40,777 bases of DNA from Acidimicrobiales bacterium. Lineage in GTDB: Bacteria; Actinomycetota; Acidimicrobiia; Acidimicrobiales; Iamiaceae. The notes under the pieces were generated by a model. That model saw nothing but the letters and a program-made list of their open reading frames with translations. It searched no databases and was not told where the DNA came from. This document shows, piece by piece, positions 111 through 15,406 of this stretch. A program made the translations under genes and the position numbers. The stretch spans positions 1 through 40,777 of the forward strand of contig JAOBWM010000185.1 of the NCBI GenBank assembly GCA_025463365.1, given 5' to 3'. The number at the start of each line of letters is the position of its first letter. Position 1 is the stretch's first letter.

Positions 111-128
111 GCTGGTCTGGGGACCAGC
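111..128 (-). terminator. Hairpin after the small HTH gene
   Basis: A perfect 7-bp inverted repeat (GCTGGTC, loop TGGG, GACCAGC) lies 7 bases past the stop codon of the minus-strand HTH gene. It has no U-tract, so termination is plausible but unproven. Confidence 0.4.
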
Positions 129-135
129 CGAGGTG

Positions 136-336
136 TCAGGCGCGGGCGGAAGCCCAGGCCTCAATGTGTTGTCGGACCCACAGCCGTGTGCGGCCCGCCC
201 CGCGCTCAACGGCGGGCCGCGGGAAGTCGGCGTACCGCTTCAAGTAGGTGGTGACGCTGCTGCGATGACTGAGCCCAAGGATCTCGGCGACGTCTTGGGA
301 GTCGATGAGGTCATCGGTGTCGACTACGGGGGCCAT
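136..336 (-). CDS. Small AlpA/MerR-like HTH protein (copy A)
   Basis: A 66-residue protein consisting of little more than one DNA-binding domain. Residues about 10-30 (LIDSQDVAEILGLSHRSSVT) form a helix-turn-helix of the AlpA/excisionase type, followed by a wing region ending in RLWVRQHIEAWASARA, the W-x-x-x-x-I-x-x-W pattern of this family. Such proteins act as excisionases or as activators of integrase genes in phage-like elements. It is divergently transcribed from the XRE gene and has a counterpart at 10781-10984. The ATG lacks a clear Shine-Dalgarno sequence and may be leaderless. Excisionase versus plain regulator cannot be decided from sequence. Confidence 0.65.
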   Translation of the reverse strand: MAPVVDTDDLIDSQDVAEILGLSHRSSVTTYLKRYADFPRPAVERGAGRTRLWVRQHIEAWASARA

Positions 337-344
337 GCTGGTCA

Positions 345-399
345 GTCTAACGATGTTGACATCCGGAGCTCGGATCCCCTACAGTCTTAATCGTTAGAC
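345..399 (+). promoter_or_regulatory. Promoter of XRE gene A inside a symmetric operator pair
   Basis: A sigma-70-like promoter TTGACA (356-361), 18 bp, TACAGT (380-385) points toward the XRE gene. It is bracketed by a perfect 10-bp inverted repeat, GTCTAACGAT at 345-354 and ATCGTTAGAC at 390-399. One arm sits just upstream of the -35 box and the other at the expected start site. A second small palindrome (ATCCG GAGCT CGGAT, 361-375) lies in the spacer. The layout suggests repression of the divergent HTH/XRE promoters, probably by one of their products (inference). Confidence 0.6.
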
Positions 400-414
400 A
401 ACGTGCGCCGCAGT

Positions 415-456
415 GACCCCGGCGGTGGTGGAACACCCCGGGGCCCGGCCAGAACC
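415..456 (+). ncRNA. Conserved leader hairpin before XRE gene A
   Basis: Forty-two bases can be aligned without gaps with 11047-11088. The stem is CCCCGG, bulged C, GGTG, then a variable loop, then CACC CCGGGG. Four of the eight differences between the copies fall together in the loop, and one falls at both partners of a stem pair (C-G here, T-A in the other copy), so the pairing is preserved. A conserved CCGGCCAG tail follows, then the ribosome-binding site GAGAGG. This suggests a structured 5' leader. A DNA-level operator is also possible. Confidence 0.55.
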
Positions 457-474
457 TGTGTGAGAGGTAATGAC

Positions 475-918
475 GTGAAGGATCTTAAGGATGATGTGGA
501 CGCCGCCGTTGTGGCGCCCCGGCGACTGGCGTTGGGGCGTGCGATCCGGGCCGCTCGTGGAGCGATGTCCCAGACCGAGTTCGGCCGATTGGCCGGCCGG
601 CCGCAGTCCGTGGTCTCGGAGTGGGAGTCGGCGACCCGTGCGCCTGGTCTCGAACTTCTGAGCCGCCTGGAGGAAGGTCTTGGGGTGCCCCTGGGAACGT
701 TGGCTGCCGAGGCGGGCTACTTCTCGGAGGACGTGTTCGGTAGCGCGAGCGACGTGGTCGCTTGTCGGGCCTGCGATTCTCTGGACGAAGCATCTGCGTC
801 GGTCTCGGCCGCGGAGCTGCTCGGGTTCGAGGCTCGGTTGGCGAGTGAGGTCGACAATGGGACGCGGACCTGGCGGGTCGAGGTTGTTCGGCGGTCAGTC
901 GCCGACGGGACCCGGTGA
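475..918 (+). CDS. XRE-family HTH regulator (copy A)
   Basis: A 147-residue protein. Residues about 20-80 form a Cro/C1-type helix-turn-helix (LGRAIRAARGAMSQTEFGRL, then GRPQSVVSEWESATRAPGLE), followed by LLSRLEEGLGVPLGTLAAEA, the usual last helix of this domain. The C-terminal 60 residues are specific to this protein. The GTG start at 475 is chosen because GAGAGG lies 7 bases before it and because the conserved leader hairpin would otherwise be translated. The 3' end overlaps the end of the convergent minus-strand gene by 24 bp. It is shorter at the C-terminus than its counterpart in copy B. Its role as repressor of the element is inferred from its position at a palindromic promoter. Confidence 0.75.
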   Translation: MKDLKDDVDAAVVAPRRLALGRAIRAARGAMSQTEFGRLAGRPQSVVSEWESATRAPGLELLSRLEEGLGVPLGTLAAEAGYFSEDVFGSASDVVACRACDSLDEASASVSAAELLGFEARLASEVDNGTRTWRVEVVRRSVADGTR

Positions 919-1497
919 CTGGACCGCAGCCCGGCGCTTCGCCTCCTTGAGCCAGCCATGCACCGTGCTAATGGCCACCCGGTTCGCCTCCGCGATGTCA
1001 GCAGCCGGGCGTCGACTCTTCAAGCTCTGCGCTTGGTGGATGCGCCAAACCTCGGCGTAGAAGGCGTCGGCGCGCTTTCCCCGCGCTGGTACCGAGAGGT
1101 GCAGCTCGATGTCCTCCCACCCGATCGAGTCCTGGTGGATCTGTCTGGTTCGAACGGCCGCCTCGGCGGGAGAGCAGGCACCAGGGTCGAGGACCGGTGC
1201 GCCGCGATCGTTCCCGAGCGCGTAGTCGACCTCGTCATCGTGCAGGGCTCGTTCGAGCTGTCCCATGGGCAGGTTGCGCATCGTCGTGCCAGTGACTCGT
1301 CGCTCGTCGAGCGACCTGATTGTTACCTCGACGGGAGCGAAGTGGTCTCCAGGCCTCCCTCGGGTCGCTCTGACGTGGACGTGCAGGTGCTCCTCCGGTT
1401 GCCAGAGGAGCCAGCCGCCTTTGCCTACGTACAGCGGGCCTCCCCCCACCGAGTAGGAGCGCCTCGGCGTGATCTTGTGCTGACCCTTGATGACCAT
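895..1497 (-). CDS. HTH protein of the IAEANGV...STVHGWLKEAKRR type (copy A)
   Basis: A 200-residue protein with a C-terminal helix-turn-helix: residues about 165-190 read RPAADIAEANRVAISTVHGW followed by LKEAKRR. The N-terminal part begins with a conserved patch (SVGGGPLYVGKGGWLLWQPE) and holds a second one around LPMGQLERAL. Proteins with this tail are common in actinobacterial mobile elements, as far as I know without an assigned function. It is divergent from the recombinase-like gene, with an operator-like region between them. The ATG at 1497 has AGGA 8 bases upstream. Earlier in-frame starts (GTG 1515, ATG 1506) are possible but do not match copy B. Likely a regulator of the recombinase/transposase operon (inference). 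Confidence 0.6.
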   Translation of the reverse strand: MVIKGQHKITPRRSYSVGGGPLYVGKGGWLLWQPEEHLHVHVRATRGRPGDHFAPVEVTIRSLDERRVTGTTMRNLPMGQLERALHDDEVDYALGNDRGAPVLDPGACSPAEAAVRTRQIHQDSIGWEDIELHLSVPARGKRADAFYAEVWRIHQAQSLKSRRPAADIAEANRVAISTVHGWLKEAKRRAAVQSPGPVGD

Positions 1498-1538
1498 GAG
1501 CCACATCCTAACCACCTTTGCTGGACCACCTCAGCGAA

Positions 1539-1570: not shown

Positions 1571-1584
1571 AAAGTCATCGCCTC

Positions 1585-2556
1585 ATGACGCAACCGCCGA
1601 TGCCGAACTCAGCAGATCCGGTCCGCTCCCAGCGGGTCGGCGGCCGCGGCCAAACGCGCACTGCGCCGTTCGACCTGGCTGCGTTCGCCGACACCTACGA
1701 GCCGCGCGATCAACAAAGGTGGTCCGAGGTCCAGGCGACCGTGCGGGAGTGCGTGGGCCGCTCCGGTGTTGTGGCATACCCATCAGCCCATCGGCTGACT
1801 CGGGCTCTCACGGGGCTCGCCGTGCACTGCGTGGAGCAGGGAGTGCCGCTGGACGTGGAGCGGATGTTGCACCCCGATCGGGTCGAGGCTTTCATCGCCA
1901 GCCTTGGAGAGCTCAAAGCGCGGAGCGACTGGCGCGCCGATCTGTACAGGCTCGGCCGGAAGCTGACCAAGAAGGCTCCGTATCGACCGAAGCTCGAAGT
2001 CGGCCGTCGCCCGCCTCATGAGCCGTACACGGATGATGAGTTGGCTGCGCTTCGGCGCGTCATCTCGAACCAGGGCACGCCGCACCGTGTCCAGAGCGGC
2101 ATCGGTCTGTTCTTGCTCGGTCTTGGCGCTGGTCTCGACGGACGGTGGGCGCCGTTCATCCGACCCGACCAGGTTTGGCGAACCAGCGGCGGCGTCGTCG
2201 TGGTCCAGGCGGAGGCCCCTCACGCGCGGCGGGTGCCGGTCGATCCGCTCGTGGCCGACGACCTGATCGCGATGGCGGAACGAACTCGGACGGATTGTCT
2301 TGTGGGCGCCTATTCCACAAGCTCCAACCGTGCCTACCAGCTCGTGAACGCCATCCAGGTTCCGCAGGGACTCCCAGAGCTCAGCCTGCGCCGGCTGCGC
2401 TCGACGTGGATCGCTCGACAGCTCATCGTTGGTATGCCGGTGCCCCACCTGATCGACGCCGGCGGCCTCGAAACCACGGCCCGGCTCGCTGAGATGCTGC
2501 CTTACGTGCGCAGGGCCATCGGGCTGCCGGAGTGGGCAACGGAGCGGCGGCCATGA
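1585..2556 (+). CDS. Tyrosine-recombinase-like protein (copy A)
   Basis: A 323-residue protein. The first 130 residues look like a SAM-like core-binding domain (VAYPSAHRLTRALTGLAVHC). The rest follows the tyrosine recombinase fold: LGLGAGLDGRWAPFIRPDQV at the box I position, RRLRSTWIARQLIVG at the box II HxxR position, and LPYV near the C-terminus where the nucleophile would lie. Compared with the family, the box I arginine is replaced by aspartate (GLD), the box II histidine is missing and only the second arginine is clear. It may therefore be inactive, use a rearranged active site, or serve as a DNA-binding partner. Its ATG follows the operator region. Its stop overlaps the next gene as ATGA, so the two are translationally coupled. 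Confidence 0.65.
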   Translation: MTQPPMPNSADPVRSQRVGGRGQTRTAPFDLAAFADTYEPRDQQRWSEVQATVRECVGRSGVVAYPSAHRLTRALTGLAVHCVEQGVPLDVERMLHPDRVEAFIASLGELKARSDWRADLYRLGRKLTKKAPYRPKLEVGRRPPHEPYTDDELAALRRVISNQGTPHRVQSGIGLFLLGLGAGLDGRWAPFIRPDQVWRTSGGVVVVQAEAPHARRVPVDPLVADDLIAMAERTRTDCLVGAYSTSSNRAYQLVNAIQVPQGLPELSLRRLRSTWIARQLIVGMPVPHLIDAGGLETTARLAEMLPYVRRAIGLPEWATERRP

Positions 2557-4304
2557 CCGCCGGACGTAGCGTCGACCGGCTCGACCTCTCCGGCACGCCC
2601 ATCGACATCGGCGACTTCGAGCGGGCCCTCCAGATCGTCGTGAAGACGGGATACCACGAGACCTTCGCTGCGGAACTCAATCAGGGATGGGGAGCGCCCC
2701 GCCGCAATGACATCCTCGGATTCCTGGTCGCCTGCCAGGTGAACGCGTTTCGCCGCGAGCACACCGGCGAGCTCTTGGCGATCACCCGGGTCCTGAACGG
2801 CTTCTCCTCCAACCAATGCGATCGCGTTGGGCTGGTGCACTGGACGATCGAGAATTCGTACGACCGGGTCGACCGGATCTTCAACGACATCACCACCCTC
2901 GAAAGGTCCAGCGTTGTCGGCCGGGATCCCTCGCAGCTCGACAACATCTGCGACCGGTTCTCCAACGCCATGATCGAGGCGTCGATCTCCCAGCGCGACA
3001 AGGTGTCCACCGCCGTGGCCTACGACGCCACCGCCATCGAGGGTTGGGCCAATCCGCATTTCTTGGAACTCGACGGCGAGCCGGGACCGAGTGACGAGGA
3101 GGCTGGCATCCGCAAGGAGCAGACCTTCGTCCAAGCCACCTTCGGCGTCGGGCCAGATGGTCGCAAGATCCCGACCAAGGATCGAGATGCGCGGTCCGGC
3201 CACCGCAGCGCCGTTGCCAAGAAGAAGGCGTCCCTCTACACGGGCTACCAATGCCACATCGGGGTCCAGACCCGGTCAGCCGAGATCCGCAACCCCGTCG
3301 ATGGCGTGGCGCTCGGCCCGGAAGTACCCCAGTTGATTCGGGCAGCTGCAATCACCGAGGCCGGAGCTCACGCAGCGCGCACGTGCCGGCACCTCATCAC
3401 CCGATACGGGAGCGGGGAGTGGGCTATGGAGGACATCATCGCCGACCGAGGGATGACGCTCGGGGTCGACGAATGGCAGCTCCCGCTGCGTGCCGAGGGT
3501 CGCCGGCCGTTCTTCGATCTCCACACTCAGCAGCGCGGCATCAAGACGACCTCCAAGAACTTCGTGACCGTCGACGGCTGGCCCGTCAGCCACGCCGCCC
3601 CGCCCAGTGCCCTCGTAGGCGAAGGCGGTAAGCCGCTTCCCATGCCTTCCCGCGGTGCGTCACACGAAGCCCGTGACGAGAGCGCCCGCCGGTTCAAGGA
3701 GCGAGCGCGCTACACGTTCCGTGTTCATCAGCGTCCCGACGCCGACGGTGCCATGCGATTTCGTGGCCCCCTCGCGAGCGGTCGACTCCGCACCAACGCA
3801 GCGCCCTACGAACACACGATGCGGCTGCCCCATTCGAAGCCCCTCGTCGATCTCCCCGAGGACTGGGAACCGTCCTTCGACGGCGTGATTACCGTCATGC
3901 CGAGAGAGCTCCCGCTCTACCAGTCGGTTCAGTTCGGCACTCGGGCGTGGCAGCAGGCCTACCTCGGCCGGCGTCAGGCGGCGGAGTCGGCCAACGCCGG
4001 GCTCAAGCAGGCGAAGGCCAACATCGAGAACAAGGGCCACTTCAAGGTATTCACGAGGAACAAGATCTCCTTCCTCATGGCCTTCGAGATGGTCGCCTAC
4101 AACGTGCGTCGGTCCGAAGCCTTCTGGCGAGATCAGCGTCTCAAGCGCGGCGCCCAGGCGAATGGGGATGGGCGTACCGCCAGAGAGCGGGCCCAGAGGC
4201 GCGCGGGCACGAACGCAGAGATCGCCGCCGAAGCGGCCTCGGCGTCAGCGGCCGACGTGATGTGTCTGGACGGTCCGAGCGTGGACACCCACCCGCCTCC
4301 CTGA
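2553..4304 (+). CDS. DDE transposase-like protein, IS4-type signature (copy A)
   Basis: A 583-residue protein with a recognisable RNase H-like DDE catalytic set: D158 (in VAYDATAIEGW), D298 (in IIADRGM) and E478 in YLGRRQAAESANAGLK. The last string fits the YREK signature of the IS4 group (Y-3-R-3-E-6-K). The N-terminal 150 residues include a helical region (RNDILGFLVACQVNAF...HTGELLAITRVLNGFSS) that may bind DNA. It is longer than typical IS4 transposases and is not flanked by obvious terminal inverted repeats. ATG overlaps the stop of the recombinase-like gene by 4 bp. It has a full-length homologue at 13345-15072 with all three catalytic positions kept. Activity as a transposase is inferred from residues only. 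Confidence 0.7.
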   Translation: MTAGRSVDRLDLSGTPIDIGDFERALQIVVKTGYHETFAAELNQGWGAPRRNDILGFLVACQVNAFRREHTGELLAITRVLNGFSSNQCDRVGLVHWTIENSYDRVDRIFNDITTLERSSVVGRDPSQLDNICDRFSNAMIEASISQRDKVSTAVAYDATAIEGWANPHFLELDGEPGPSDEEAGIRKEQTFVQATFGVGPDGRKIPTKDRDARSGHRSAVAKKKASLYTGYQCHIGVQTRSAEIRNPVDGVALGPEVPQLIRAAAITEAGAHAARTCRHLITRYGSGEWAMEDIIADRGMTLGVDEWQLPLRAEGRRPFFDLHTQQRGIKTTSKNFVTVDGWPVSHAAPPSALVGEGGKPLPMPSRGASHEARDESARRFKERARYTFRVHQRPDADGAMRFRGPLASGRLRTNAAPYEHTMRLPHSKPLVDLPEDWEPSFDGVITVMPRELPLYQSVQFGTRAWQQAYLGRRQAAESANAGLKQAKANIENKGHFKVFTRNKISFLMAFEMVAYNVRRSEAFWRDQRLKRGAQANGDGRTARERAQRRAGTNAEIAAEAASASAADVMCLDGPSVDTHPPP

Positions 4305-4325
4305 CCTGACCAGCGCCATCCATGT

Positions 4326-4356
4326 GCCAATGAGGCGCCAATGGCGCCTCATTGGC
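4326..4356. terminator. Perfect 15-bp inverted repeat after the DDE gene (copy A)
   Basis: GCCAATGAGGCGCCA and TGGCGCCTCATTGGC form a perfect 15-bp stem with a one-base loop, 21 bases after the stop codon. The core GAGGCGCC/GGCGCCTC followed by GCGCGCC recurs at the same place in copy B. It may be a bidirectional terminator or part of the element end. Confidence 0.5.
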
Positions 4357-4447
4357 GCGCCCGGGATCAAGACCTGGCGATGGCACAGGCCAAAAACCCA
4401 AGGAAGCTCGGGCACGAGGCGAGAAATCCCCTGCCAGTTCGGGCAGG

Positions 4448-4478
4448 GCGAGAGCCTCCGGTTTTCGGAGACTCTCGC
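4448..4478. terminator. 13-bp stem hairpin with GTTTT loop
   Basis: GCGAGAGCCTCCG and CGGAGACTCTCGC pair over 13 positions with one mismatch. It lies between convergent genes, so it could terminate either strand. Confidence 0.4.
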
Positions 4479-4509
4479 CTACTTGCCTGAACCCGGGTGC
4501 CCACTTTTG

Positions 4510-4534
4510 TGAACACCCCCTGGAGGGGTGTTCA
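4510..4534. terminator. 10-bp perfect hairpin
   Basis: TGAACACCCC, loop CTGGA, GGGGTGTTCA. It lies 90 bases beyond the 3' end of the minus-strand gene and is the last of three hairpins in the gap. Confidence 0.4.
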
Positions 4535-4625
4535 GGAATCCTCTGGCCAGGATCGACGCGTCCACCTACACCAAGGCTCCACAGGCTTGGACCAGGCGGC
4601 TCCACATCCCCTGGTCACAGACCTG

Positions 4626-5054
4626 TCAGTACATATGGTGAACGGCGCGCCAGAGGGTCGCAATTCGGACCCCCTCGTCGGTGAGGCAGATCGGGTCGGT
4701 ATCCCTGACGGGGGAGCCCGTCGGACGATCCCGCCAGAAGAGCGCGCCGCTGTTGCGCTTGCCGAACAGGTTCGCTGTCGATTGCACCTCGTCGCCGTAC
4801 ATCTCGCGACGGATCCGGAGAGACTCTGCCCGGGTGATCGACCCATTCTCCTCGATGAGCGCGAGGTGCCGGTGGGCTACCTCCCCGAGAGTTCGAACCC
4901 TGCCTGCGGTCTTCAGGTCCATGTAGGGGATCTCGTCCTGCTCGACGAGGGCCGAAGCGAGGATGCTTCGAGCCTCGCGGATGAGGGCCTCGGCCTGGAC
5001 GAGCCTTTCGAGTGCGTGTGCGGTCGCCTGTGATTGTTCGTTGTGGTCGTCCAC
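4626..5054 (-). CDS. Unknown protein, probable winged-helix
   Basis: A 142-residue protein of unrecognised family. The first 45 residues are helical and acidic/alanine-rich (ATAHALERLVQAEALIREAR). The centre (LALIEENGSITRAESLRIRR) and the following NSGALFWRD...DPICLTDEGVRIA resemble a winged helix: two helices, then a beta wing and a final helix. It could be a DNA-binding regulator, but that is inference from pattern. The GTG start has GAAAGG 8 bases upstream. The promoter region carries a perfect palindrome (5062-5081). It lies downstream of the P63C repressor on the same strand with a separate promoter, so it may be that repressor's target. Confidence 0.6.
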   Translation of the reverse strand: MDDHNEQSQATAHALERLVQAEALIREARSILASALVEQDEIPYMDLKTAGRVRTLGEVAHRHLALIEENGSITRAESLRIRREMYGDEVQSTANLFGKRNSGALFWRDRPTGSPVRDTDPICLTDEGVRIATLWRAVHHMY

Positions 5055-5061
5055 GGAGTGC

Positions 5062-5081
5062 CTTTCGTAAGGTTACGAAAG
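5062..5081 (-). promoter_or_regulatory. Palindromic operator of the 4626-5054 gene
   Basis: CTTTCGTAA GG TTACGAAAG is a perfect 9-bp inverted repeat with a 2-base centre, 7 bp before the start codon. On the minus strand a possible promoter TTGCAT, 18 bp, TAAAGT lies just upstream, which puts the palindrome at the start of transcription. The arm TTTCGT is shared with the operator of the P63C gene. Confidence 0.5.
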
Positions 5082-5189
5082 ACTTTACGTGTCACGGGCT
5101 CGAAAATGCAATCGAAATTTACGAGAGGTCGTACGGTGCCCCTCGCACGGGGTCTGACCAGCCAGTTAACGAAATCGAAGAGGTCGGTC

Positions 5190-6275: not shown

Positions 6276-6286
6276 GAGGTTCCGTT

Positions 6287-6312
6287 TCGTTAGCGTGAGG
6301 TACAGCTAACGA
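6287..6312 (-). promoter_or_regulatory. Operator of the P63C repressor gene
   Basis: TCGTTAGC (6287-6294) and GCTAACGA (6305-6312) form a perfect 8-bp inverted repeat with a 10-bp centre. A third half-site-like TTTTCGTT follows at 6315-6322. It resembles the operator at 5062-5081 (shared TTTCGT half), so both promoters may be bound by the HTH of the P63C protein. Confidence 0.5.
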
Positions 6313-6599
6313 GATTTTCGTTGGAGCGTCAAGCGCAAATCGTTGTCGCTCCCATGAGATCAGGGGGAGGGTGCGATGCCAGCGGTTCGTTCACGCGGAC
6401 GTGGCCCTCGCCGAGACCACCTCCGGCACGTTCGACGCCGAGCTCAAGTTCTAGCAAGCCAGTTCGAGGATCGCCTTGAAGCGCAGAGCTCGTCTGGCAA
6501 GGCTCACCTCGAAGAGATCCAGGACATGAAGGCCAAGGTGGAGAAGCTGGGGCTGATAGCCCCAGCCACTCAGGGCTGGAACCCATGCACCGAGCCTGG
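6313..6599. other. Gap with no convincing gene; possible gene remnants
   Basis: Short plus-strand frames give fragments that look protein-like (from about 6371, RCQRFVHADVALAETTSGTF, ending after 26 residues; and another ending at 6603) but without a full domain or clean start. They may be decayed remnants. There are no strong hairpins. Confidence 0.35.
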
Positions 6600-6797
6600 C
6601 TAGACGTCTACGTCGGCGTAGCGAGGGAAGTACCGGTAGACCTCGCCGTACTCCTGAATGTGAGCCTCATCGAGGAACGGGAGTCCCGCCAGCCCCGGTT
6701 CGCAGGGGAACCTGCTCTCAAGGTCGCCCATCTCCCGGGCCTCGAGTGGAGGCTGAGCGGGCGGACGCAGGGCGCTCACCCTAGAGTCGGACAGCAC
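6600..6797 (-). CDS. Small unknown protein
   Basis: About 65 residues if translation begins at the GTG at 6797; an earlier in-frame start at 6851 would overlap the divergent zinc-ribbon gene. The C-terminal half (FLDEAHIQEYGEVYRYFPRY) looks like real protein and is acidic and aromatic. No family is recognised, no good ribosome-binding site is seen, and an overlapping plus-strand frame is also open. It may be a remnant. Confidence 0.3.
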   Translation of the reverse strand: MLSDSRVSALRPPAQPPLEAREMGDLESRFPCEPGLAGLPFLDEAHIQEYGEVYRYFPRYADVDV

Positions 6798-6842
6798 TGG
6801 GAGGCGTGTGAGCGATGCGTCGCGAAGTAGGAGGAAGCCGCG

Positions 6843-7244: not shown

Positions 7245-7385
7245 GAGACCACCGTGGGGGTCCACGACGCGAGCCGTAGCACCTCCTCGGAAGCCCAAGC
7301 CAGGCAGCGAAGCTCGATAAGAATCGGTCGGTAGTGGGTCAGCTTGAGAAGGCTCCAAATCCAAACTGACCCACCTCCGAAAGAC

Positions 7386-10300
7386 TTAGAGCCGACGTGC
7401 CCGGACGCTTTCGAGGACGGCGGCGTCGAGGGCGCCGCCGTCAGGGGCGATCCCGCTCTCGCCTGCGAGGGCAATCGAGACGATCGCCCGGTGACTCGGC
7501 TCCGCAGGGTCAAACCTAGGGATCGGCAACCGATGGAGCGTGGTTGGGCCGATGGTTGTGGATGAGGCGAGCCGCGAGATGGCGTCGGTCGCCACCTCGG
7601 AGTTCATCCAACCCTCGATGTAGCGAGCCTCGTCCTCCGACGTTGGGACGTGGACGTTGCTCTTGTTGTTGGGGTAGGCCGAGGTCGTGAACCCCAGCTT
7701 CGGGTCGTAGGTCGGGTAGGAAACACCCACTGGCGGGCGCTTCTTCGGGTGCATGTAGCGGGCAAGCACTACGGGCTTTTCGCGCGCAAGATGCTCTGTA
7801 GGGCCGAGTACCCCCCAAGGGAACCTCATCGAGGGCTGGAGCTTTCCGTAGGGGGATCTCGCTGCGAGACGACTGATCCAGGTCTCCAGATAGTCGAATA
7901 GGTGGGGACCGAACCGAATGAGCTCGTCGAGTGACAGAAATCGGTTGACATCATCAGGATGGTGGGGCAGCAAGGCATACAGCCCGGAAGTCTCGATTCG
8001 AAATCTCTCCACGTTCTGGCCTCTGACGAGCGGCCACAAAAACTTGGCCTCGATTACGCCCTCTCGCGGTGACTCAGCCCTCGTGTTGTCGCCCGCGGTA
8101 GGCACATTCCGAACGAGCACCAAGCCGCTCGGGTCCGGTACGGAGCTGAGGATCTCGTAGACGAAGTAGCCGTCAAGTCCACGGGTGTGGAAGCCTTGGC
8201 CCCACGTGTAACTGATCGGATCTCCTTTCGGGAGCAGCTTGAGCGACCCCGATTGGACCCAAGGGGAACCCATGTTGCGCGGCTCGGCCGGGCTTATCTC
8301 CACCGCGGTCGAGACGAGACGTGACGCAACCTGCCCCCAGTGGTGGTCCGACGGGAGGGGGGCACGCGCTACCGACCTTGTCCACAGGTCCTTCGGGATC
8401 GGCCAGCTCGGCTCACGCCCTGCGGAGAGGTAGAGCGCAATTGGGAGATTGGCCGCATCTGGGCTGAACGGCTTGATCGCAGTCCAGTCATCAACCGCAA
8501 GCGGCTGAAAGCGCACGCTTGGCTGGTCGAGATCGGGTTGCTGTAGCCGACACCTGCGCATTCGCTCGTTGCCCGGATCAGCGATGAGAAAGGACTCGGG
8601 CAGCAGAAACGCAACAATCGCTCCCTCCTTGGCATACGAGACGATGCTCCGAGCGACAAGCAGGGTTGCGATGTCCGCTAGCGGAATTCCGCCGCCCTTG
8701 CCCTTCTTGGCCCATAGTCCCCAACTCAGCCACAGGGACCGGGAACGCTCCTGCCACGACTGCGGAAGGTGCTTCCAGCTGATCCAAGGCGGATTTCCGA
8801 TCACCAGATCCACTGGGCCGATCGTGGCCGGAGCGAATGCCTGTTCGATGATGCGGGCCCAGACACCATCCTTCTCATGCTTGTGCAGCTCAAGGATCTG
8901 CTCGTAGATGAGGGCAGATGCCTCGAGGGTCTCGTCCATCTGCGCCGGAGTTAGTCCCAACGGATCGAGGTCCGCCTCGAGCCGCATCCGGAACGTCAAT
9001 GCCGTTCGGCCGCTCTCGACGCCTCTCTCGATATTTTCGCGCAGCGAGTGAAGCCCGCCAAGGGAAGCCAAGCTCGACGGTACGTCGACGTTGCCGATCG
9101 CAAGCGGAAGGCGCCGGAAGTCACCCTGCTGATGCAACTCGACCTCGCCTCGGATCGGATCGGGCAGAAGGATAGAGTCGGCCTGGAAGACTTGGGGGGT
9201 GACGGAGGTCAATGTCTCAATCCGGTCACCGAGCGCCAGTAGCAGGTTGATTCGGGCCATCAGCACCGCAACGGGATTGATGTCGAAGCCGATCACGTTT
9301 CCAAGCGCTTGAAGTGCCGCCTTCCCGCGCTCGCTCGGGTGCAGGGCATCCTGTACGACCAACTCTCGGCTCAGGGCGGCCACCAAGAACGTGCCGGATC
9401 CACAGGACGGATCGAGCACCCGGAGGGACGCACCGTTCCCTCCCGCTAGCTCGATCGCCCTTGTCAGGGTGCGCTCAGCGAGCCATTGCGGCGTAAAGAA
9501 CTCCCCGAGGGCTCGCCGCAACGGCCGCGGGACGACTGCACCGTAGAAGTCCCTAAGAAGGTCGCCTGCAATGCCCCGGGCAGAGTTCGTGACCCGCGCC
9601 CAAGCCAGTTCCCCAAAGACGCGCAACAACGAGCGCACCGATTCAGCCAACGCGGGGTCATCTGAGAGCAGATGGGCATACCATCCGAACAAATCCCCGG
9701 CCATCAGGCCGGGAGACCTCAGATGGGTGGACGTGGTGCCATCCTCCATGGCCAGAAGCGCACTGACCATCTCGTCCGGCGGGAGCGAGACCCACGATGT
9801 CGGGCGCTTGTCACTGGCGCCAGCGCCAAGCGACAGAAGCTCAGTGCCAATCAGTTTTGCAGCGAGGGCCACGTAGGTATGGAGCGAGAAGAGCGCCTCG
9901 GCGTAGGCGCGATCTTTGAGAACCGGAGCTAACCGGTCGCCAAGCAGCTTTTCGATTGGCTGATTCGATGGCCAAGGATCACCGGATGATGTGATTCCGT
10001 AGGAAACCCCAGCGAGCTGGATCCATTGCCGAAGCAAGGTGTCCGTACGGCCGTCCGGCTCACGATCGGCAACCGCGCGTGCCATCGCACCGATCAGCTC
10101 GAGGACCTCCGGCCTTGCGAGTCCAAGGCGCGCCGCGATCGTCGAACCCGTGACGGGATCCGTGCGCACGGTGTCGATCAGGTTCAGAATTCGAGCGCAG
10201 CTCTCCGGCCCGTTGCCCCGCCAGGTGAACCGTTCAGCCGATGTCGCGGGAGGAGCGATGCCGGCGAGTTGAAGCATGCCTTGCTCACCCATTTCAAGCG

Positions 10301-10673
10301 GAGCGGACGCGTCCCGGTAGTGCGCCCATGTCGAGCCATCGGTCACAATGACCACGTCGGCAGCCATCGTGGAGTCCTCGATGTACTTGAGGGCTTGAAG
10401 CGCAGCCGCTTCCCGCGCCTTCGCGCTCTCTAGCGAGCCAGGGATCTTGTACTCAACAATCGCCCGCCCGATGCGCGAGTCGTACCGGCCGGCCAAGCCG
10501 GTGCCCTCATGGGAGAGGGCAGCCTGGTCGAGCCCGAGGACCCGTGTAGCCCAAGGCTGAAAGAACAGCCAGAGGTGGTGCCGAAGGTCAGCCTCGGTAC
10601 CGCCTTGCCGCGCCGCTTCCGTGGACCGTGTCGACAGGAGATCTGCGTGTTCCTGCTCGATGGCGCTGGTCAC
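7386..10673 (-). CDS. Single-chain type IIG-like restriction-modification enzyme
   Basis: About 1095 residues. The N-terminal region carries a PD-(D/E)xK-like pattern (GRYDSRIGRAIVEYK, about residue 70), suggesting a nuclease. The N6-adenine methyltransferase core has the SAM-binding motif VLDPSCGSGTFLVAAL (about 420) and the catalytic NPPW motif in DLVIGNPPWISW (about 625). The C-terminal third (RFRIETSGLYALLPHH, then VGVSYPTYDPKLG) resembles the target-recognition region of Eco57I-type enzymes. Such proteins methylate and cut DNA with one polypeptide. The GTG at 10673 is preferred over 10691 because GAGG lies 7 bases upstream. No separate R or S subunit is adjacent. Recognition sequence and cutting ability cannot be read from sequence. 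Confidence 0.8.
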   Translation of the reverse strand: MTSAIEQEHADLLSTRSTEAARQGGTEADLRHHLWLFFQPWATRVLGLDQAALSHEGTGLAGRYDSRIGRAIVEYKIPGSLESAKAREAAALQALKYIEDSTMAADVVIVTDGSTWAHYRDASAPLEMGEQGMLQLAGIAPPATSAERFTWRGNGPESCARILNLIDTVRTDPVTGSTIAARLGLARPEVLELIGAMARAVADREPDGRTDTLLRQWIQLAGVSYGITSSGDPWPSNQPIEKLLGDRLAPVLKDRAYAEALFSLHTYVALAAKLIGTELLSLGAGASDKRPTSWVSLPPDEMVSALLAMEDGTTSTHLRSPGLMAGDLFGWYAHLLSDDPALAESVRSLLRVFGELAWARVTNSARGIAGDLLRDFYGAVVPRPLRRALGEFFTPQWLAERTLTRAIELAGGNGASLRVLDPSCGSGTFLVAALSRELVVQDALHPSERGKAALQALGNVIGFDINPVAVLMARINLLLALGDRIETLTSVTPQVFQADSILLPDPIRGEVELHQQGDFRRLPLAIGNVDVPSSLASLGGLHSLRENIERGVESGRTALTFRMRLEADLDPLGLTPAQMDETLEASALIYEQILELHKHEKDGVWARIIEQAFAPATIGPVDLVIGNPPWISWKHLPQSWQERSRSLWLSWGLWAKKGKGGGIPLADIATLLVARSIVSYAKEGAIVAFLLPESFLIADPGNERMRRCRLQQPDLDQPSVRFQPLAVDDWTAIKPFSPDAANLPIALYLSAGREPSWPIPKDLWTRSVARAPLPSDHHWGQVASRLVSTAVEISPAEPRNMGSPWVQSGSLKLLPKGDPISYTWGQGFHTRGLDGYFVYEILSSVPDPSGLVLVRNVPTAGDNTRAESPREGVIEAKFLWPLVRGQNVERFRIETSGLYALLPHHPDDVNRFLSLDELIRFGPHLFDYLETWISRLAARSPYGKLQPSMRFPWGVLGPTEHLAREKPVVLARYMHPKKRPPVGVSYPTYDPKLGFTTSAYPNNKSNVHVPTSEDEARYIEGWMNSEVATDAISRLASSTTIGPTTLHRLPIPRFDPAEPSHRAIVSIALAGESGIAPDGGALDAAVLESVRARRL

Positions 10674-10780
10674 TGGTGCCTCAAGGCACACTGTGACTGA
10701 CTTGAGCTTGAGGTACGTGGCATGAGGGCACCGAAGCTAATTCGCCGGCCGGCGCCACGGCGTGACGGAAGAGGTTGCCC

Positions 10781-10984
10781 CTACCTGGATCGCCTCGAGC
10801 GTCCGTCCAGCCACACCTGAATGTCTCTACGAGACCAGAGGACGCACCGGCTCTTCTCGATCACCGGATCGGGGAAGGTCCCATAGCGACTCCGGTAGAC
10901 CGAGATGGCGGTACGGCTACTGAGACCCAACATCGCCGCGACCTCGCTGGCGTCGAGTAGCTCATTCGGGTCGATCCGCTCCAT
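10781..10984 (-). CDS. Small AlpA/MerR-like HTH protein (copy B)
   Basis: A 67-residue protein with helix-turn-helix LLDASEVAAMLGLSSRTAIS and the tail VLWSRRDIQVWLDGRSRRSR. The pattern ILGL/MLGLS, Y-x-x-R-Y, FP, then W-x-x-x-x-I-x-x-W matches copy A. The ATG at 10984 is preferred over a preceding TTG. As in copy A it diverges from an XRE gene. The role as excisionase or regulator is inferred. Confidence 0.65.
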   Translation of the reverse strand: MERIDPNELLDASEVAAMLGLSSRTAISVYRSRYGTFPDPVIEKSRCVLWSRRDIQVWLDGRSRRSR

Positions 10985-10999
10985 CAAGCCGAACCCTAG

Positions 11000-11042
11000 T
11001 TGACGCAGGCCAACTCAGTCAGCTACGTTGACGTACGACAAC
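11000..11042 (+). promoter_or_regulatory. Promoter and palindrome before XRE gene B
   Basis: TTGACG (11000-11005), 18 bp, TACGTT (11024-11029) repeats the spacing of the copy A promoter. Overlapping its -10 end is a 16-bp near-palindrome with arms GTTG/CAAC around CGTACG (11027-11042, one mismatched pair). The operator sequence differs from copy A, so the two modules may be insulated from each other. Confidence 0.5.
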
Positions 11043-11046
11043 AGGT

Positions 11047-11088
11047 GGTCCCGGCGGTGCATCAACACCCCGGGACCCGGCCAGCACC
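11047..11088 (+). ncRNA. Conserved leader hairpin before XRE gene B
   Basis: Stem GTCCCGG, bulged C, GGTG, loop CATCAA, CACC, CCGGGAC, followed by the conserved CCGGCCAG. Against copy A, one stem pair changes from C-G to T-A and an A-C mismatch becomes G-C, so pairing is maintained or improved while the loop changes. The ribosome-binding site GAGGAGG follows within 10 bases. Confidence 0.55.
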
Positions 11089-11106
11089 CCCGAGGAGGGT
11101 CCTGAC

Positions 11107-11715
11107 ATGACGCACGATAATCCGTCTCTGCGCGCTCAGCTTTCACGATCGCAGGCTCTTGGTCGAGCCATCCGCGATGCTCGCAGGGGTTTGATGACCC
11201 AGGCGGAACTGGGCGAGCAACTCGCCTTTCCGCAGTCGTGCATCTCGGCTTGGGAGCACGGCCAAACAGAGCTTTCGCTTGAACGACTGGCGTCGATTGA
11301 GCGAGCTCTGAGGTTGCCGCCCGGTCGCTTGGCTGTTGAAGCCGGCTACGTCGGCGATGACGCACTGCGCCTATTTCCGGCTGCGATGGAAGAGGACAGC
11401 CATTCTGTACACTTCCCGGTACGGGTGCGGGGTTGGCTGCGGCTGCACAGCCCGTTGGTCGAGAGCTTGGTCCTGCTCCGCTCGTCGGGCGATGACGAGG
11501 CTCTCAACGCGCTCCTTGAGTCGCGCAAGGTGAAGTCGTTCCGGCTTGCGTGGGAGATCTGGGAGCGGATGCTCCCGAGGGGCGAGTCGCCCGCGACGCA
11601 TCTCACTGCACATCTTCGGGCCGACCTAGTTGCGGCCTGCATGTTCGGAGTCTGGGGCATCGACACAGGCCAGGAGGCCTACCCCGGCCTCAGGGCTGCT
11701 GAGTCGAACGCGTGA
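11107..11715 (+). CDS. XRE-family HTH regulator (copy B)
   Basis: A 202-residue protein. Residues about 18-75 form the helix-turn-helix (LGRAIRDARRGLMTQAELGE, then QSCISAWEHGQTELSLERLA), followed by IERALRLPPGRLAVEAGYVG, which matches the VPLGTLAAEAGYF segment of copy A. The C-terminal 100 residues are longer than in copy A and have no domain I recognise. ATG with GAGGAGG 8 bases upstream. It ends 5 bp from the convergent HTH gene. Confidence 0.75.
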   Translation: MTHDNPSLRAQLSRSQALGRAIRDARRGLMTQAELGEQLAFPQSCISAWEHGQTELSLERLASIERALRLPPGRLAVEAGYVGDDALRLFPAAMEEDSHSVHFPVRVRGWLRLHSPLVESLVLLRSSGDDEALNALLESRKVKSFRLAWEIWERMLPRGESPATHLTAHLRADLVAACMFGVWGIDTGQEAYPGLRAAESNA

Positions 11716-11720
11716 GGTCG

Positions 11721-12293
11721 CTACTGGCTCTTCGAGCGACGCTTGTGTTCCTTGAGCCAACCATGAACGGTGCTGATCGCGACGCCGTTTGCTTCGGCAA
11801 TAACCGCTGCTGGGCGGTGGCTGTTCTTTGCCACGTCCTGGTGGATGCGCCACACGCCCTCGTAGAAGGCGTCGTCGCGTCTGCCGGGGCGAGGGATCTC
11901 CAGTTGGAGCTCGACGGGCTCCCACCCAACCATCTCCCTCTCGATCGCTTCGACCTTGGCTTGCGCTTGTTCAGTGGAACACCGGGCCGGATTGAAACGG
12001 GGCGAGCCGCTGCGGTCCAGCGCCTCGATCACCTCCGGGTCTCGGAGTGCTCGCTCAAGCTGCCCCATGGGCAAGTCGCGAAGGGTCGAGCCCGTGATCT
12101 TGTCGTCGTCCGTGGTCCGCACACTGAGACCGACCGGCGCCCACAGGTGCGCAAGCCGCTTGACCTCAACGCGCACGTCCAGCGCGGGGAGCGGACGCCA
12201 GAGCAACCACGCGTCACCCCCGACATACACGGGGCCGCCTCCAACCGAGAACCGACGGCGGGGCTTGAGCTTGCTAGCTCGGGCTGCGTCCAT
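11721..12293 (-). CDS. HTH protein of the IAEANGV...STVHGWLKEHKRR type (copy B)
   Basis: A 190-residue homologue of the copy A protein: SVGGGPVYVGGDAWLLWRP at the start, LRDLPMGQLERAL in the middle and RPAAVIAEANGVAISTVHGW plus LKEHKRR at the end. ATG at 12293 is chosen by alignment with copy A. It begins within the operator region, so the transcript may be leaderless or nearly so. It is probably a regulator acting on the divergent recombinase/transposase operon (inference). Confidence 0.6.
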   Translation of the reverse strand: MDAARASKLKPRRRFSVGGGPVYVGGDAWLLWRPLPALDVRVEVKRLAHLWAPVGLSVRTTDDDKITGSTLRDLPMGQLERALRDPEVIEALDRSGSPRFNPARCSTEQAQAKVEAIEREMVGWEPVELQLEIPRPGRRDDAFYEGVWRIHQDVAKNSHRPAAVIAEANGVAISTVHGWLKEHKRRSKSQ

Positions 12294-12306
12294 ATCTGCA
12301 CGATAC

Positions 12307-12353
12307 ACCAGGTGTGCGCAACATGGTTCGCGAACCCAGGTTTGCGAACCTGG
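12307..12353. promoter_or_regulatory. Operator-like repeats in divergent region, copy B
   Basis: ACCAGGTGTGCGCAACATGG (12307-12326), the perfect 12-bp palindrome GGTTCGCGAACC (12325-12336) and the near-palindrome CCAGGTTTGCGAACCTGG (12336-12353, 16 of 18 symmetric) are packed end to end. The CCAGGTKTGC unit matches the corresponding gap of copy A. Confidence 0.55.
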
Positions 12354-12377
12354 TGTGAATGTGATTGAGTCTCCGCC

Positions 12378-13355
12378 ATGAACGCCCTAGACCCAGCATC
12401 CGGCTTCGAACGCTCCATTGCCGAGCAACGCGTCGGCGGCCGTGGCTACACCCGCACAACGTCCTTCTCCCTCGAGGAGTTTGCGGCGGCCTACGTCCCG
12501 GCTGATCTGATCGGTTGGAGCGAGGTCGAGGAATTCGTGCGACGCGGGCTTCTCGCATCGGAGGTGCGGACGTACTCGCATGCCCAGCGAACGGCCCGCG
12601 CCCTGACAATGCTCGCCCGGCACTGTGTCTCCGCGGGCGTGCCTCTCGATCCAGAGCGGGCGCTCCATCCCGACCGAGTCGGGCACTTCGTCGCCACCGA
12701 CCTGGCCGGCATGGCGTCCGCGTGCGACTGGGCCAGCGACCTGAGCAGGGTCGGCAGGCGGCTCACCCGCAACGCGCCGTGGATCCCGAAGCGAACCTTC
12801 GGCCGTGGTCACAAGAAGGCGCCTCTGTCCGAGTCAGAGATCGCAGCCCTGTCGAGACTGGTACGGACCCAGACCACCGACGGTCGCCGCCGCGCCGGGC
12901 AGGCGTTTCTGTTCCTGGGCCTCGGTGCTGGCCTAGACGGCAGGTGGGCGACCCGCATTGCACCATCGGATGTCGGCGACGAAGCCCGTGGTGTTGTGGT
13001 GCACGTTCCCGGGCCAAAACCTCGAACCGTGCCCGTCGCAGATAGGTGGGCGCAGGAGCTAATCGACCTGGCCCGCTCCACGGAGACGACCTGCCTCGTC
13101 GGCCAGCGCTCAACCTCGGCCAATCGGGCCAGCGCGCTGACGCAGTCGATCAAATCCACAACGGGTGACGCTGTACTGGATCTCGGCCGATTGCGGTCGA
13201 CCTGGCTCGTCAACCGAATGCTTGATGGACTCGCCCTGCCCACGCTCTTGCGCGAGGCCGGGCTGATCTCGACCAGCCAGCTGGACGGGATGCTGCCTTA
13301 CGTCGACGCTCGATTGGCCGAGCTTGAGGGCAAGGTCGAGCCCCATGCCGGCTGA
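12378..13355 (+). CDS. Tyrosine-recombinase-like protein (copy B)
   Basis: A 325-residue homologue of the copy A protein: QRVGGRGYTRTTSFSLEEFA at the N-terminus, LGLGAGLDGRWATRI at the box I position, GRLRSTWLVNRMLDG at box II and MLPYV near the end. Both copies share the same departures from the family: GLD instead of GLR, no box II histidine, but kept RLRSTW and LPYV. Shared loss in diverged copies argues for a stable altered function rather than recent decay. The stop overlaps the next gene by 11 bp. Confidence 0.65.
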   Translation: MNALDPASGFERSIAEQRVGGRGYTRTTSFSLEEFAAAYVPADLIGWSEVEEFVRRGLLASEVRTYSHAQRTARALTMLARHCVSAGVPLDPERALHPDRVGHFVATDLAGMASACDWASDLSRVGRRLTRNAPWIPKRTFGRGHKKAPLSESEIAALSRLVRTQTTDGRRRAGQAFLFLGLGAGLDGRWATRIAPSDVGDEARGVVVHVPGPKPRTVPVADRWAQELIDLARSTETTCLVGQRSTSANRASALTQSIKSTTGDAVLDLGRLRSTWLVNRMLDGLALPTLLREAGLISTSQLDGMLPYVDARLAELEGKVEPHAG

Positions 13356-15072
13356 GCGGAATCGACAGGTTCTCAACCTCACCCCCGCTCCTTCAACATC
13401 GGAGGATTTCGAGCTCGCCCTCAGCGTGATCGTCCGATCCGGCGTGGAGGATCTCGTCCGTGCGGAACTGTACGGAAACCCTGGCAGGCACCGTCGCGAT
13501 GATCTCCGCGGCCTCCTCGTTGCCGGGCTTCTCAATGCGCTCCTTCCGGCGCACACCGGCGAGCTGACCGCGGTAACCCGCATTATGAACGGGTTCAGTA
13601 GTCGACAGCGCACCCGCCTCGGAATCGCCGATTGGATCCCGGGCCCGCCCGCCTACAAGCGAGTCACTCGCCTGTTTGCCGCAATGGCGGCCCTCGATAA
13701 TCTCGAAACGGTCAGCCGAGACCCGGAGCGGCTCGACGGCGTAGCTCACCGTATCGCCAATTCCCTCATCCTCGCCTCGATCCCGCCCGAGTATCACTTG
13801 TCGACAAGCGTCGCGATCGACGGGACTGACGTCGAAACGTTTGCCGCATGCACCTACGCAGACAACGAGATCGAGCTTGACGGGGATCCGGGACCGAGCG
13901 AGCAGGAGACGGCGTACCGCCATACGTCGAAGCCGGGCGGCGCCCACTGGCAGGTCCTAGCGATAGGGCCCGACGGGCGGAAGCGGTACACAAAAGATCC
14001 CACTGCACGCGCCGGTCACCGCAGTGCGACCGCGAACCGCCGCGCTGGCCCATACATCGGTCATGAGCTTCATCTCATGACTCAGGTGCGCGACTGTCAG
14101 ATCACGAATCCGGTCAACGGCGCGACGCTCGGGCCCAGGGTGCCCCATCTCATTCGCGGCGCCTACCTCGCCGAAGCTGGCGCACACCGCGCGCGGGTGG
14201 GACGCAAGCTCGTCGAACTCGCCAGCTCTGACTGGGCGGTGGGCGATGTAGTCACCGACCGGGGCTACACGAGAAGCCCAGCCGAGTTTCAGCTCCTCCT
14301 GCGCGCCTCCGGACGGCGGGTGTTTTTCGATCTCTATCCGGACCAGCGGGGCGACCACCCCACGACGAAAGGGGTCCGGATAGTCGACGGCTGGCCATAC
14401 TCCCGGGCGCCGAGCCCACTCCTGGACTCTCCAGCCCCGCCACCGCGGCCGCCGAGGAACCGCTCGCACGACGCCAAGCTCCCGTACTTCAAGGCCTACG
14501 AGGACCGGGCAACCTATCGGTGGTCCCTACATGCTGGGCCCGATGCCGACGGCTCGATGCGATTTCGAGGTCCCTTTGCGGCGGGACGTCTCCGTAGCCG
14601 CGCGTATCCGCGTACCATGAGGGGCTCGGAGACCAAGCCGCTCGTCGACCTTCCAAGCACGTGGGACCGGGCCTTTGACGGCACGGCGACCTTCCAGGCG
14701 GCTGAACTGCCCCACTGGCAACCAACGATTCCCTACTCCCGGGCGTGGGACCGGGCCTACATGGCTCGCCGGCAGGGCGTCGAATCCGCCAACGCAGGCC
14801 TCAAGGAGGCCGGGGCCGACATCGGAAACCACAAACACATCAAGGTCTTTGGCACCGTCAAGCGCGCTCTGATGCTCGCGTTCGAGATCGCGGCCTACAA
14901 CATCCGCCGGATACGGACGTTCGAGGCCGGGACGCAAGTCCTGCCGACACCCGAGACTCCCGGCCCTAGCGCTCGAGCGCCACGTCGGGTCGGAACCTTT
15001 CAAAGCATCGTGGCCGAGGCGGCAGCGACGCTGGCTCGTGAAGCGGCAGGCCCTCCGAGCCCCCCTCCATAG
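13345..15072 (+). CDS. DDE transposase-like protein, IS4-type signature (copy B)
   Basis: A 575-residue protein with D159 (VAIDGTDVETFA), D305 (VVTDRGYTRS) and E480 in YMARRQGVESANAGLKEA, giving Y-3-R-3-E-6-K. Other strings shared with copy A are ELDGDPGPSEQE, AGHRSATANRRAG, DADGSMRFRGPFAAGRLR and KPLVDLP. ATG at 13345 overlaps the end of the recombinase-like gene, so expression is probably coupled. No terminal inverted repeats are seen around the gene itself. Confidence 0.7.
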   Translation: MPAERNRQVLNLTPAPSTSEDFELALSVIVRSGVEDLVRAELYGNPGRHRRDDLRGLLVAGLLNALLPAHTGELTAVTRIMNGFSSRQRTRLGIADWIPGPPAYKRVTRLFAAMAALDNLETVSRDPERLDGVAHRIANSLILASIPPEYHLSTSVAIDGTDVETFAACTYADNEIELDGDPGPSEQETAYRHTSKPGGAHWQVLAIGPDGRKRYTKDPTARAGHRSATANRRAGPYIGHELHLMTQVRDCQITNPVNGATLGPRVPHLIRGAYLAEAGAHRARVGRKLVELASSDWAVGDVVTDRGYTRSPAEFQLLLRASGRRVFFDLYPDQRGDHPTTKGVRIVDGWPYSRAPSPLLDSPAPPPRPPRNRSHDAKLPYFKAYEDRATYRWSLHAGPDADGSMRFRGPFAAGRLRSRAYPRTMRGSETKPLVDLPSTWDRAFDGTATFQAAELPHWQPTIPYSRAWDRAYMARRQGVESANAGLKEAGADIGNHKHIKVFGTVKRALMLAFEIAAYNIRRIRTFEAGTQVLPTPETPGPSARAPRRVGTFQSIVAEAAATLAREAAGPPSPPP

Positions 15073-15087
15073 CCGTGCCTTTCCCCA

Positions 15088-15110
15088 GGCTGCACCCGAG
15101 GCGCCACGAA
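15088..15110. terminator. GAGGCGCC hairpin after the DDE gene (copy B)
   Basis: CGAGGCGCC, loop ACGAA, GGCGCCTCG, followed by TTTGCGCGCC. It matches the position and core of the copy A hairpin (GAGGCGCC/GGCGCCTC then GCGCGCC). Confidence 0.5.
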
Positions 15111-15212
15111 GGCGCCTCGTTTGCGCGCCTCCATTCAGGCCGACAGGCCTGTCCGACCGCCCAAAACTCCTGCCGGTACGTCCTCGAGTCCAAAACCCAG
15201 AACGTTTCGGCA

Positions 15213-15248
15213 GGTTCGGGATCCGCCCTTGTGGGCGGATCCCGAACC
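15213..15248. terminator. Perfect 16-bp stem at the right end of element B
   Basis: GGTTCGGGATCCGCCC, loop TTGT, GGGCGGATCCCGAACC. It is a long perfect hairpin 41 bp from the tRNA 3' end. It could stop transcripts coming out of the element or mark its end. Confidence 0.5.
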
Positions 15249-15266
15249 CGTTTCCGGAACTAGGAC

Positions 15267-15285: not shown

Positions 15286-15289
15286 TCCC

Positions 15290-15364: not shown

Positions 15365-15406
15365 AGGTCGGGACACCCTAGTGCCATGACGGTTGAGGGT
15401 CGGTCG

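Follow-up and report, generated by a model that had tools for sequence, protein, structure and literature searches.

Tn7 uses TnsD to insert at a constant position immediately 3′ of an essential gene and carries cargo, and the tRNA-borne integrative elements with tyrosine integrases, for example the actinomycete integrative and conjugative element (AICE) pSAM2, have the 3′ end of a tRNA gene as their address. In the Tn7-like element Tn6022, TnsF, a protein with an inactivated tyrosine-recombinase domain, is reported to be needed for insertion into comM, together with TnsA, TnsB, TnsC and TniQ (Faure et al. 2023, PMC10293859). The Dada DNA transposons of fish are reported to target tRNA genes (PMC8869645). 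The stretch of DNA analysed here (the window) is the complete 40,777-nucleotide contig JAOBWM010000185.1 (C25) from the 219-contig genome of an Acidimicrobiales bacterium, GCA_025463365.1. It contains two copies, A and B, of a five-gene set, in each of which a gene for a tyrosine-recombinase-like protein (Rec) is followed by that for a DDE-type transposase (DDE), and these are the only two DDE copies found in that genome. The Rec-DDE pair is quite probably the core of a site- and orientation-specific transposon, in which DDE would do the chemistry and Rec would find the tRNA gene; in the window, A would have inserted first, followed by B with its cargo. The literature searched, mainly open-access, yielded no description of a bacterial DDE transposase and a dead tyrosine recombinase at tRNA genes.

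A convergent tRNA or transfer-messenger RNA (tmRNA) gene, called by ARAGORN, lies less than 400 bp from 54 of 70 DDE 3′ ends, usually at 190–260 bp (extremes 15 and 319), and just six other tRNA genes are present in the 1,082,046 bp of the same 79 sources. The tally covers DDE ends with at least 350 bp beyond them (L021 and L026, with <350 bp, were set aside) and omits the duplicates L071, L072, L116–L124 and L143 and the short search loci L001–L017 and L032–L061. The targets are tRNA-Cys (copy B of the window), Leu(CAG), Leu(TAA), Leu(GAG), Tyr, Ser, Met, Gly, Ala and tmRNA. In the tree, close relatives share a target, and Leu(CAG), Met and Ser are each found at more than one separate position. 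At four loci, L020, L077, L068 and L074, tmRNA genes face the right end of the element or lie near it.

As judged from sequence comparison, most of the elements lie with the DDE 3′ end towards the 3′ end of a tRNA or tmRNA gene, and seven of them have short terminal inverted repeats and target duplications of 5 or 7 bp. When the Streptomyces copies were compared, the right end proved sharp, ...CTCGTGAACGTCCC, and separated from the tRNA by a few variable bases; left ends were obtained by reading outward from the tRNA in several genomes. Both ends were mapped in the Streptomyces genome G302, where the element is 41.3 kb long and has inverted repeats alike at 15/16 positions and a 7-bp target duplication. 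Its layout is tRNA-GGAC / ACCAGCA / GGGACGTTCACGAG ... CTCGTGAACGTCCC / ACCAGCA / GAGACCCCAG, with GGGACGTTCACGAG at both ends and ACCAGCA in both flanks, the latter starting at the discriminator base, nucleotide 73, as placed by hand from the acceptor-stem pairing. Because the duplications begin at this nucleotide, the target RNA gene is left whole. The 22-base sequence of the rejoined, empty G302 site occurs in 4 of 199 Streptomyces genomes (reversed-pattern control, 0), in one of which, G470, it is located at the aligned tRNA-Leu locus. The 19-base terminus occurs seven times in six of the 199 genomes, six times beside tRNA-Leu and once, in G580, in an older element displaced by a newer one; there the second, older right end is found just past the left end of the newer element, the duplication is 6 bp, and the elements are stacked with the newest adjoining the tRNA. 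ACCAGCA is doubled beside the left end in G613, as after insertion and loss, and in G481 the duplication is ACCAGCG with one extra G. The right ends of distant clades look similar to the eye, each with a tip rich in G and, after it, two direct repeats that resemble TTCACGAAA and are spaced by about 24 bp.

The left ends were also compared with chance at 16 loci. Nucleotide 73 was located manually in the tRNA, the duplication was required to begin there, and the best left end was ranked against 1000 random positions (L090/G165, without its last 130 bp, was left out of end mapping). Seven of the 16 loci were significant, with duplications of 5 or 7 bp: random positions did as well in 0/1000 cases each for G302, G108, G286 and L066, 1/1000 for G017, 10/1000 for G134 and 14/1000 for G308a.

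Of the full-length DDE genes, 46 have 700 bp or more of upstream DNA, and in 45 of these Rec lies directly upstream; the Rec and DDE frames overlap both in the window and in Streptomyces. A profile made from the two window DDEs has relatives in 11 of 61 near genomes and a 12-member profile in at least 28 of 396 genomes of the phylum, the own genome being counted both times; the second figure is a lower bound because three candidates per genome were scored. A Streptomyces member, used as the query, matched in 54 of 295 genomes and in 26 named loci of that genus. Three plasmid records match DDE, none of the phage records searched does, and a related-locus search with the two window DDEs gave no relative among 125 pattern matches.

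The first-pass annotation of the window had regarded the module as a family of elements, which the recurrence of Rec-DDE bears out, and had taken the five-gene order as its conserved unit, which does not hold. All five genes occur together in no tested locus besides the window, and since Rec-DDE recurs, the conserved core is Rec and DDE and the five-gene set looks like a lineage variant. The AlpA-like, XRE-type and third helix-turn-helix (HTH) proteins are probably lineage-specific regulators. With search models built from just the two window copies, AlpA-like and XRE genes recur beside Rec-DDE in L028, in the order and on the strands seen in the window, XRE gives weak matches in L024 and L031, the third HTH family recurs in L027, and none of the three families matches in the 26 Streptomyces loci L090–L115. 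Two or three tandem Rec paralogues stand ahead of DDE in L031, L073, L019 and L065, and in L097 (8637–10001) a stop codon breaks the Rec frame and the DDE frame is open.

For DDE, Rec and the third HTH protein, no Pfam or NCBIfam match reaches the family cut-off, and the first-pass annotation likewise knew of no named element with this combination of genes. Its assignment of an IS-type DDE protein agrees with weak matches to the insertion-sequence family IS1182 (NCBIfam NF033551; 18.2 bits for A and 14 bits for B, below the cut-off of 270 bits), which 5 of 12 DDE proteins of the Rec-DDE family match at E ≤ 0.01, the best with E 6e-16, and to DDE_Tnp_1_6, also matched by 5 of 12. These families and DDE_Tnp_1 account for all the weak matches, with none to rve (TnsB-type), and the best PDB match of a profile search with the DDE alignment has E 0.79. 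The catalytic triad is kept in the 32 non-redundant proteins out of the 46 of full length (D166 in 32/32, D312 in 32/32 and E487 in 31/32), and because it is conserved DDE is the candidate catalyst. The Rec-DDE elements differ from the IS1182/IS4-superfamily insertion sequences in being 5.5–41 kb long with cargo, in having Rec as a partner and in their fixed target.

Rec, of ~325 amino acids, has, as modelled, the tyrosine-recombinase fold. A 14-member Rec profile finds XerA in the PDB with E 2e-8, and Pfam Phage_integrase matches 1 of the 14 members (E 0.006). The AlphaFold model of the copy B protein (predicted local distance difference test, pLDDT, 75.8; predicted template modelling score, pTM, 0.54) resembles XerA with Z 13.8 and a root-mean-square deviation (rmsd) of 14.8 over 246 residues, from which it follows that the domains are turned, Tn1549 Int with Z 13.2 and rmsd 3.2 over 156, and HP1 Int with Z 13.1; other near folds are those of P2 Int, XerH and Cre, and the best 50 Foldseek matches are likewise tyrosine recombinases. 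The degenerate state of this recombinase, suggested at first inspection, is evident in non-redundant proteins, of which 3/37 have Arg I, 1/37 the motif-II His, 36/37 Arg II, 0/35 the motif III His/Trp and 1/37 a Tyr at the aligned catalytic column. Since most catalytic residues are missing, Rec is predicted to be probably inactive.

Tn6022 and its TnsF resemble the Rec-DDE elements in having one fixed chromosomal target and target duplications; they differ in the use of TnsA, TnsB, TnsC and TniQ and in targeting comM, as opposed to an IS1182-like DDE and a tRNA or tmRNA end, and TnsF has 498 amino acids with N-terminal zinc fingers, a family of which no match was found in the shorter Rec (PMC10293859). 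In eight genomes, TniQ (PF06527) matches just in G481 C1 and G580 C100, neither of which is the element contig, and TniB (PF05621) matches in all eight and in 13 of 14 controls, nowhere at the element places. The simplest reading would be an independent case of the Tn6022 idea, with DDE chemistry and a dead recombinase giving the address. Tn7 with TnsD differs from the Rec-DDE elements in its transposase family and its partner proteins. Elements of the pSAM2 type share with them the address at a tRNA 3′ end and an integrase-fold protein, but the Rec-DDE elements have inverted repeats and 5–7-bp duplications, an intact DDE triad and a Rec with most catalytic residues lost. The Dada transposons are similarly DNA transposons reported to target tRNA genes; they are eukaryotic and are likened here by their target alone (PMC8869645).

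In the proposed mechanism, each Rec-DDE pair would form the transposition core and the remainder of the element would be cargo. DDE would cut and join the element ends, and Rec, the putative target selector, would bind the tRNA gene and steer DDE there in the manner of TnsD or TnsF but without TniQ and TnsC. In the window, copy A would have jumped to tRNA-Cys and B would then have inserted at the same nucleotide, displacing A outward, with the P63C and type IIG genes travelling in B.

The two five-gene sets reported by the first-pass annotation are present, with the same order and strands, AlpA-like(−), XRE(+), HTH(−), Rec(+) and DDE(+), and span 136–4304 in copy A, which begins close to the contig end, and 10781–15072 in copy B (Table 1). 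Pairwise BLASTP of A and B gives identities of 39% over 62 amino acids for the AlpA-like protein, 49%, confined to 72, for XRE, 53% over 186 for HTH, 47% over 309 for Rec and 44% over 594 for DDE, with E-values, in two-sequence comparison, from 3e-17 (XRE) to 4e-155 (DDE), far beyond chance. By blastn the copies share a 184-bp match at 70% within the HTH genes. Identities of 39–53% agree with the earlier view that this was no recent duplication, and the matching non-coding parts mentioned there are seen 3′ of the two DDE genes, where the DNA can be aligned. The copy ends had been put at 4534 and 15250, close to the ~4519 and ~15288 at which they are now read. The P63C protein and the restriction-modification enzyme between the copies were correctly recognized, the latter being of type IIG, and the tRNA-Cys gene at 15290, which faces DDE-B, was absent from that finding.

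Copy B adjoins tRNA-Cys. The 9-mer CCCTGGAGG occurs twice in the window, at +214 bp from the DDE-A stop and at +215 bp from the DDE-B stop, where it overlaps the tRNA-Cys 3′ end. The occurrence at 4518 is flanked by inverted tips, ...TGTGAACACCC and GGGGTGTTCAGG, and the arrangement is read as the right end of A, a duplicated tRNA end and the left end of B. Copy A probably represents an earlier insertion at this tRNA-Cys, pushed outward, and the cargo with the P63C and type IIG genes is most likely part of element B at ~4525–15288, the left end of which is uncertain; the tips, read inward, are GGGGTGTTCAGGAATC (left) and GGAGCCTTCCGGCAAG (right). The left end of copy A falls off the contig. 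No second copy of any 14 bp from 15241–15370 is found in the window. Empty sites in relatives, proposed at the outset as a means to define the ends, were obtained for G302, as described above; for the window tRNA-Cys seven relatives were read by eye, the downstream DNA differs in each, and no clean site was seen. A left end of B near 10.7 kb, which would place the cargo in a third element, was considered and rejected as no tRNA-end repeat with a matching tip was seen by eye, no formal test being made.

Several observations weigh against this interpretation. The tips of B are alike at 9/16 positions, 325/1000 random positions are as good, another site inside B ties with the proposed left end, and the left tip resembles, by eye, the right end of A more than that of B. 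The left end was not significant at 9 of the 16 loci in all (the window, 325/1000; G239, 70; G308b, 191; G360, G110, G176, G055, L027 and L031), several of which had limited DNA available around them, and the loci used to test the nucleotide-73 rule include some in which it had first been recognised. The 54 tRNA-facing cases are not independent, as 22 are tRNA-Leu(GAG) copies, 69–100% identical to one query, and 16 are tRNA-Ala copies, all in Streptomyces, with 16 of the 54 coming from other lineages or targets. For 16 of the 70 DDE ends ARAGORN calls no facing tRNA: window A, L018, L019, L022, L028, L029, the second relics in L066 and L069, L068, L073, L075, L078, L108, L133, L134 and L142. 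Inspection of L022 by eye shows the 3′ portion of a tRNA, perhaps tRNA-Met, after the DDE gene, the element end in L068 maps to a tmRNA 1.6 kb away, the tRNA is partly N in the assembly of L108, and in L133 a tRNA-Ser call overlaps the DDE frame. The exceptions include intact copies in L028 and on two plasmids, L018 (Streptomyces clavuligerus) and L019 (Rhodococcus opacus), neither of them at a called tRNA, so that a second targeting mode or a loss of specificity is possible for the plasmid copies; L018 (2997–9538) has candidate ends with a target duplication GGTGG and a 12/16 inverted repeat. L023 is the sole full-length DDE among the 46 with no Rec detected. A Tyr is found one column before the aligned catalytic Tyr in 20/37 Rec proteins, though in neither of the window, so some recombinase activity is possible outside the window proteins. 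Finally, the AlphaFold model of DDE has a pLDDT of only 34.7, too low to speak for or against an RNase H fold.

It is conceivable, though unlikely, that DDE itself recognises the tRNA gene and Rec serves in end binding, regulation or cointegrate processing. The two genes are adjacent and the identity of the target could therefore track either one, two solved structures that resemble Rec, MrpR and SroF, are titled in the PDB as phage regulators, and L023 is located at tRNA-Leu without a detectable Rec, although it is possibly a relic. The role of Rec as the selector is favoured by the presence of Rec in nearly every case, at times as two or three in tandem, by the classic binding of tyrosine recombinases to tRNA ends and by the dead tyrosine recombinase that is a proven target selector in Tn6022. 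Ordinary tRNA islands made by an active tyrosine integrase, with Rec-DDE as a passenger or Rec as a degenerating integrase, are a very unlikely explanation: the mapped ends are inverted repeats with 5–7-bp duplications, without longer direct repeats of the tRNA end, the catalytic residues of Rec are mostly lost while the DDE triad is intact, and the spacing from DDE to the tRNA is fairly constant. Such islands would fit the use of tRNA 3′ ends, which are their usual sites, the integrase fold of Rec and the nearby Tyr in about half of the family.

The first-pass annotation described a defence cargo framed by the two copies of the module. Read as a composite transposon, the pair would mobilise the genes between them, and the 6 kb of cargo does sit between two diverged modules, with the own left end of element B not significant. 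However, single-unit Rec-DDE elements (G302, also G613) have both of their own ends with cargo inside, A and B are in direct orientation, and their three larger proteins are just 44–53% alike. Such a composite is highly improbable, and each Rec-DDE pair is more probably the tRNA-facing right end of its own element. The least probable account is that adjacency to tRNA genes reflects pile-up at hotspots, with no specific targeting by Rec-DDE; the stacking in G580, and probably in the window, and the different sequences that follow the same tRNA in other genomes are compatible with it, but the single orientation, the similar spacing and the duplications from nucleotide 73 across several tRNA types speak against it.

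If the Rec-DDE pair is such a targeted transposition core, these would be little-noticed bacterial mobile elements that insert exactly at the ends of tRNA genes and are able to carry anti-phage defence genes. On balance we favour, with some reserve, the view that Actinomycetota have an equivalent of Tn7 assembled from parts unrelated to it, namely an IS1182-like DDE and a disarmed tRNA-reading recombinase, with clades differing in their tRNA or tmRNA target and with stacking that builds defence islands. A dead recombinase would then have been recruited twice as the target selector of a DNA transposon, the second time outside Tn7, and a two-protein core would place inserts of as much as tens of kilobases at one particular nucleotide of essential genes, leaving these unbroken. 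This would provide a simple route for defence genes to accumulate at the tRNA genes of Actinomycetota, as well as a compact and testable system of site-specific insertion with many natural target specificities.

Table 1. Features of the window from copy A to the tRNA-Cys gene, with the deduced extent of element B.
Feature	Position	Strand	Assignment
Copy A, AlpA-like HTH	136..336	−	66 aa, accessory; HTH_17 E 0.04, below cut-off
Copy A, XRE-type HTH protein	475..918	+	accessory; HTH_3 E 9.5e-9
Copy A, third HTH protein	895..1515	−	accessory; no family above a cut-off
Copy A, Rec	1585..2556	+	tyrosine-recombinase-like with lost catalytic residues
Copy A, DDE transposase	2532..4304	+	IS1182-like but far below family cut-off; overlaps Rec A
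Copy A, right terminal region	4305..4519		ends ...TTTTGTGAACACCCC
CTGGA	4520..4524		second copy of tRNA-Cys 3′ end (UCCA+G); deduced target duplication between A right end and B left end, boundary ± ~2 bp
Element B, as deduced	4525..15288	+	10,764 bp
142-aa protein	4626..5054	−	probable cargo of B; no Pfam or PADLOC family
P63C-domain protein	5190..6275	−	probable cargo of B; P63C (Pfam) E 1.3e-24; YdaS/Cro-like N-terminus below cut-off
Zinc-ribbon protein, weak	6843..7244	+	probable cargo of B; Zn_ribbon_IS1595 E 8.7e-4, below cut-off
Type IIG restriction-methyltransferase	7386..10691	−	probable cargo of B; PADLOC REase_MTase_IIG E 7.2e-120
Copy B, AlpA-like HTH	10781..10984	−	HTH_17 E 0.0012, below cut-off
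Copy B, XRE-type HTH protein	11107..11715	+	HTH_3 E 5e-7
Copy B, third HTH protein	11721..12308	−	no family
Copy B, Rec	12378..13355	+	AlphaFold model and fold matches
Copy B, DDE transposase	13324..15072	+	D166, D312, E487; overlaps Rec B
Copy B, right terminal region	15073..15288		
CTGGA	15289..15293		target duplication at tRNA end (tRNA nucleotides 73–76 plus one)
tRNA-Cys(GCA)	15290..15364	−	target; 3′ end towards DDE B

Defence-type cargo is present in the three elements examined, namely element B of the window, that of G302, with a GmrSD-type protein and HmaA- and HmaC-like proteins, and that of G613, with HmaB- and HmaC-like proteins, eight chosen proteins having been scanned in each of the latter two. 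At locus L203 of G464, a G-rich TTCACACAA tip-like sequence is located just after tRNA-Leu and belongs perhaps to a different family with the same address. Beyond the tRNA-Cys gene, an interspersed repeat at ~18113–18500 of the window matches about 10 other contigs of the same genome, mostly at 67–77%.

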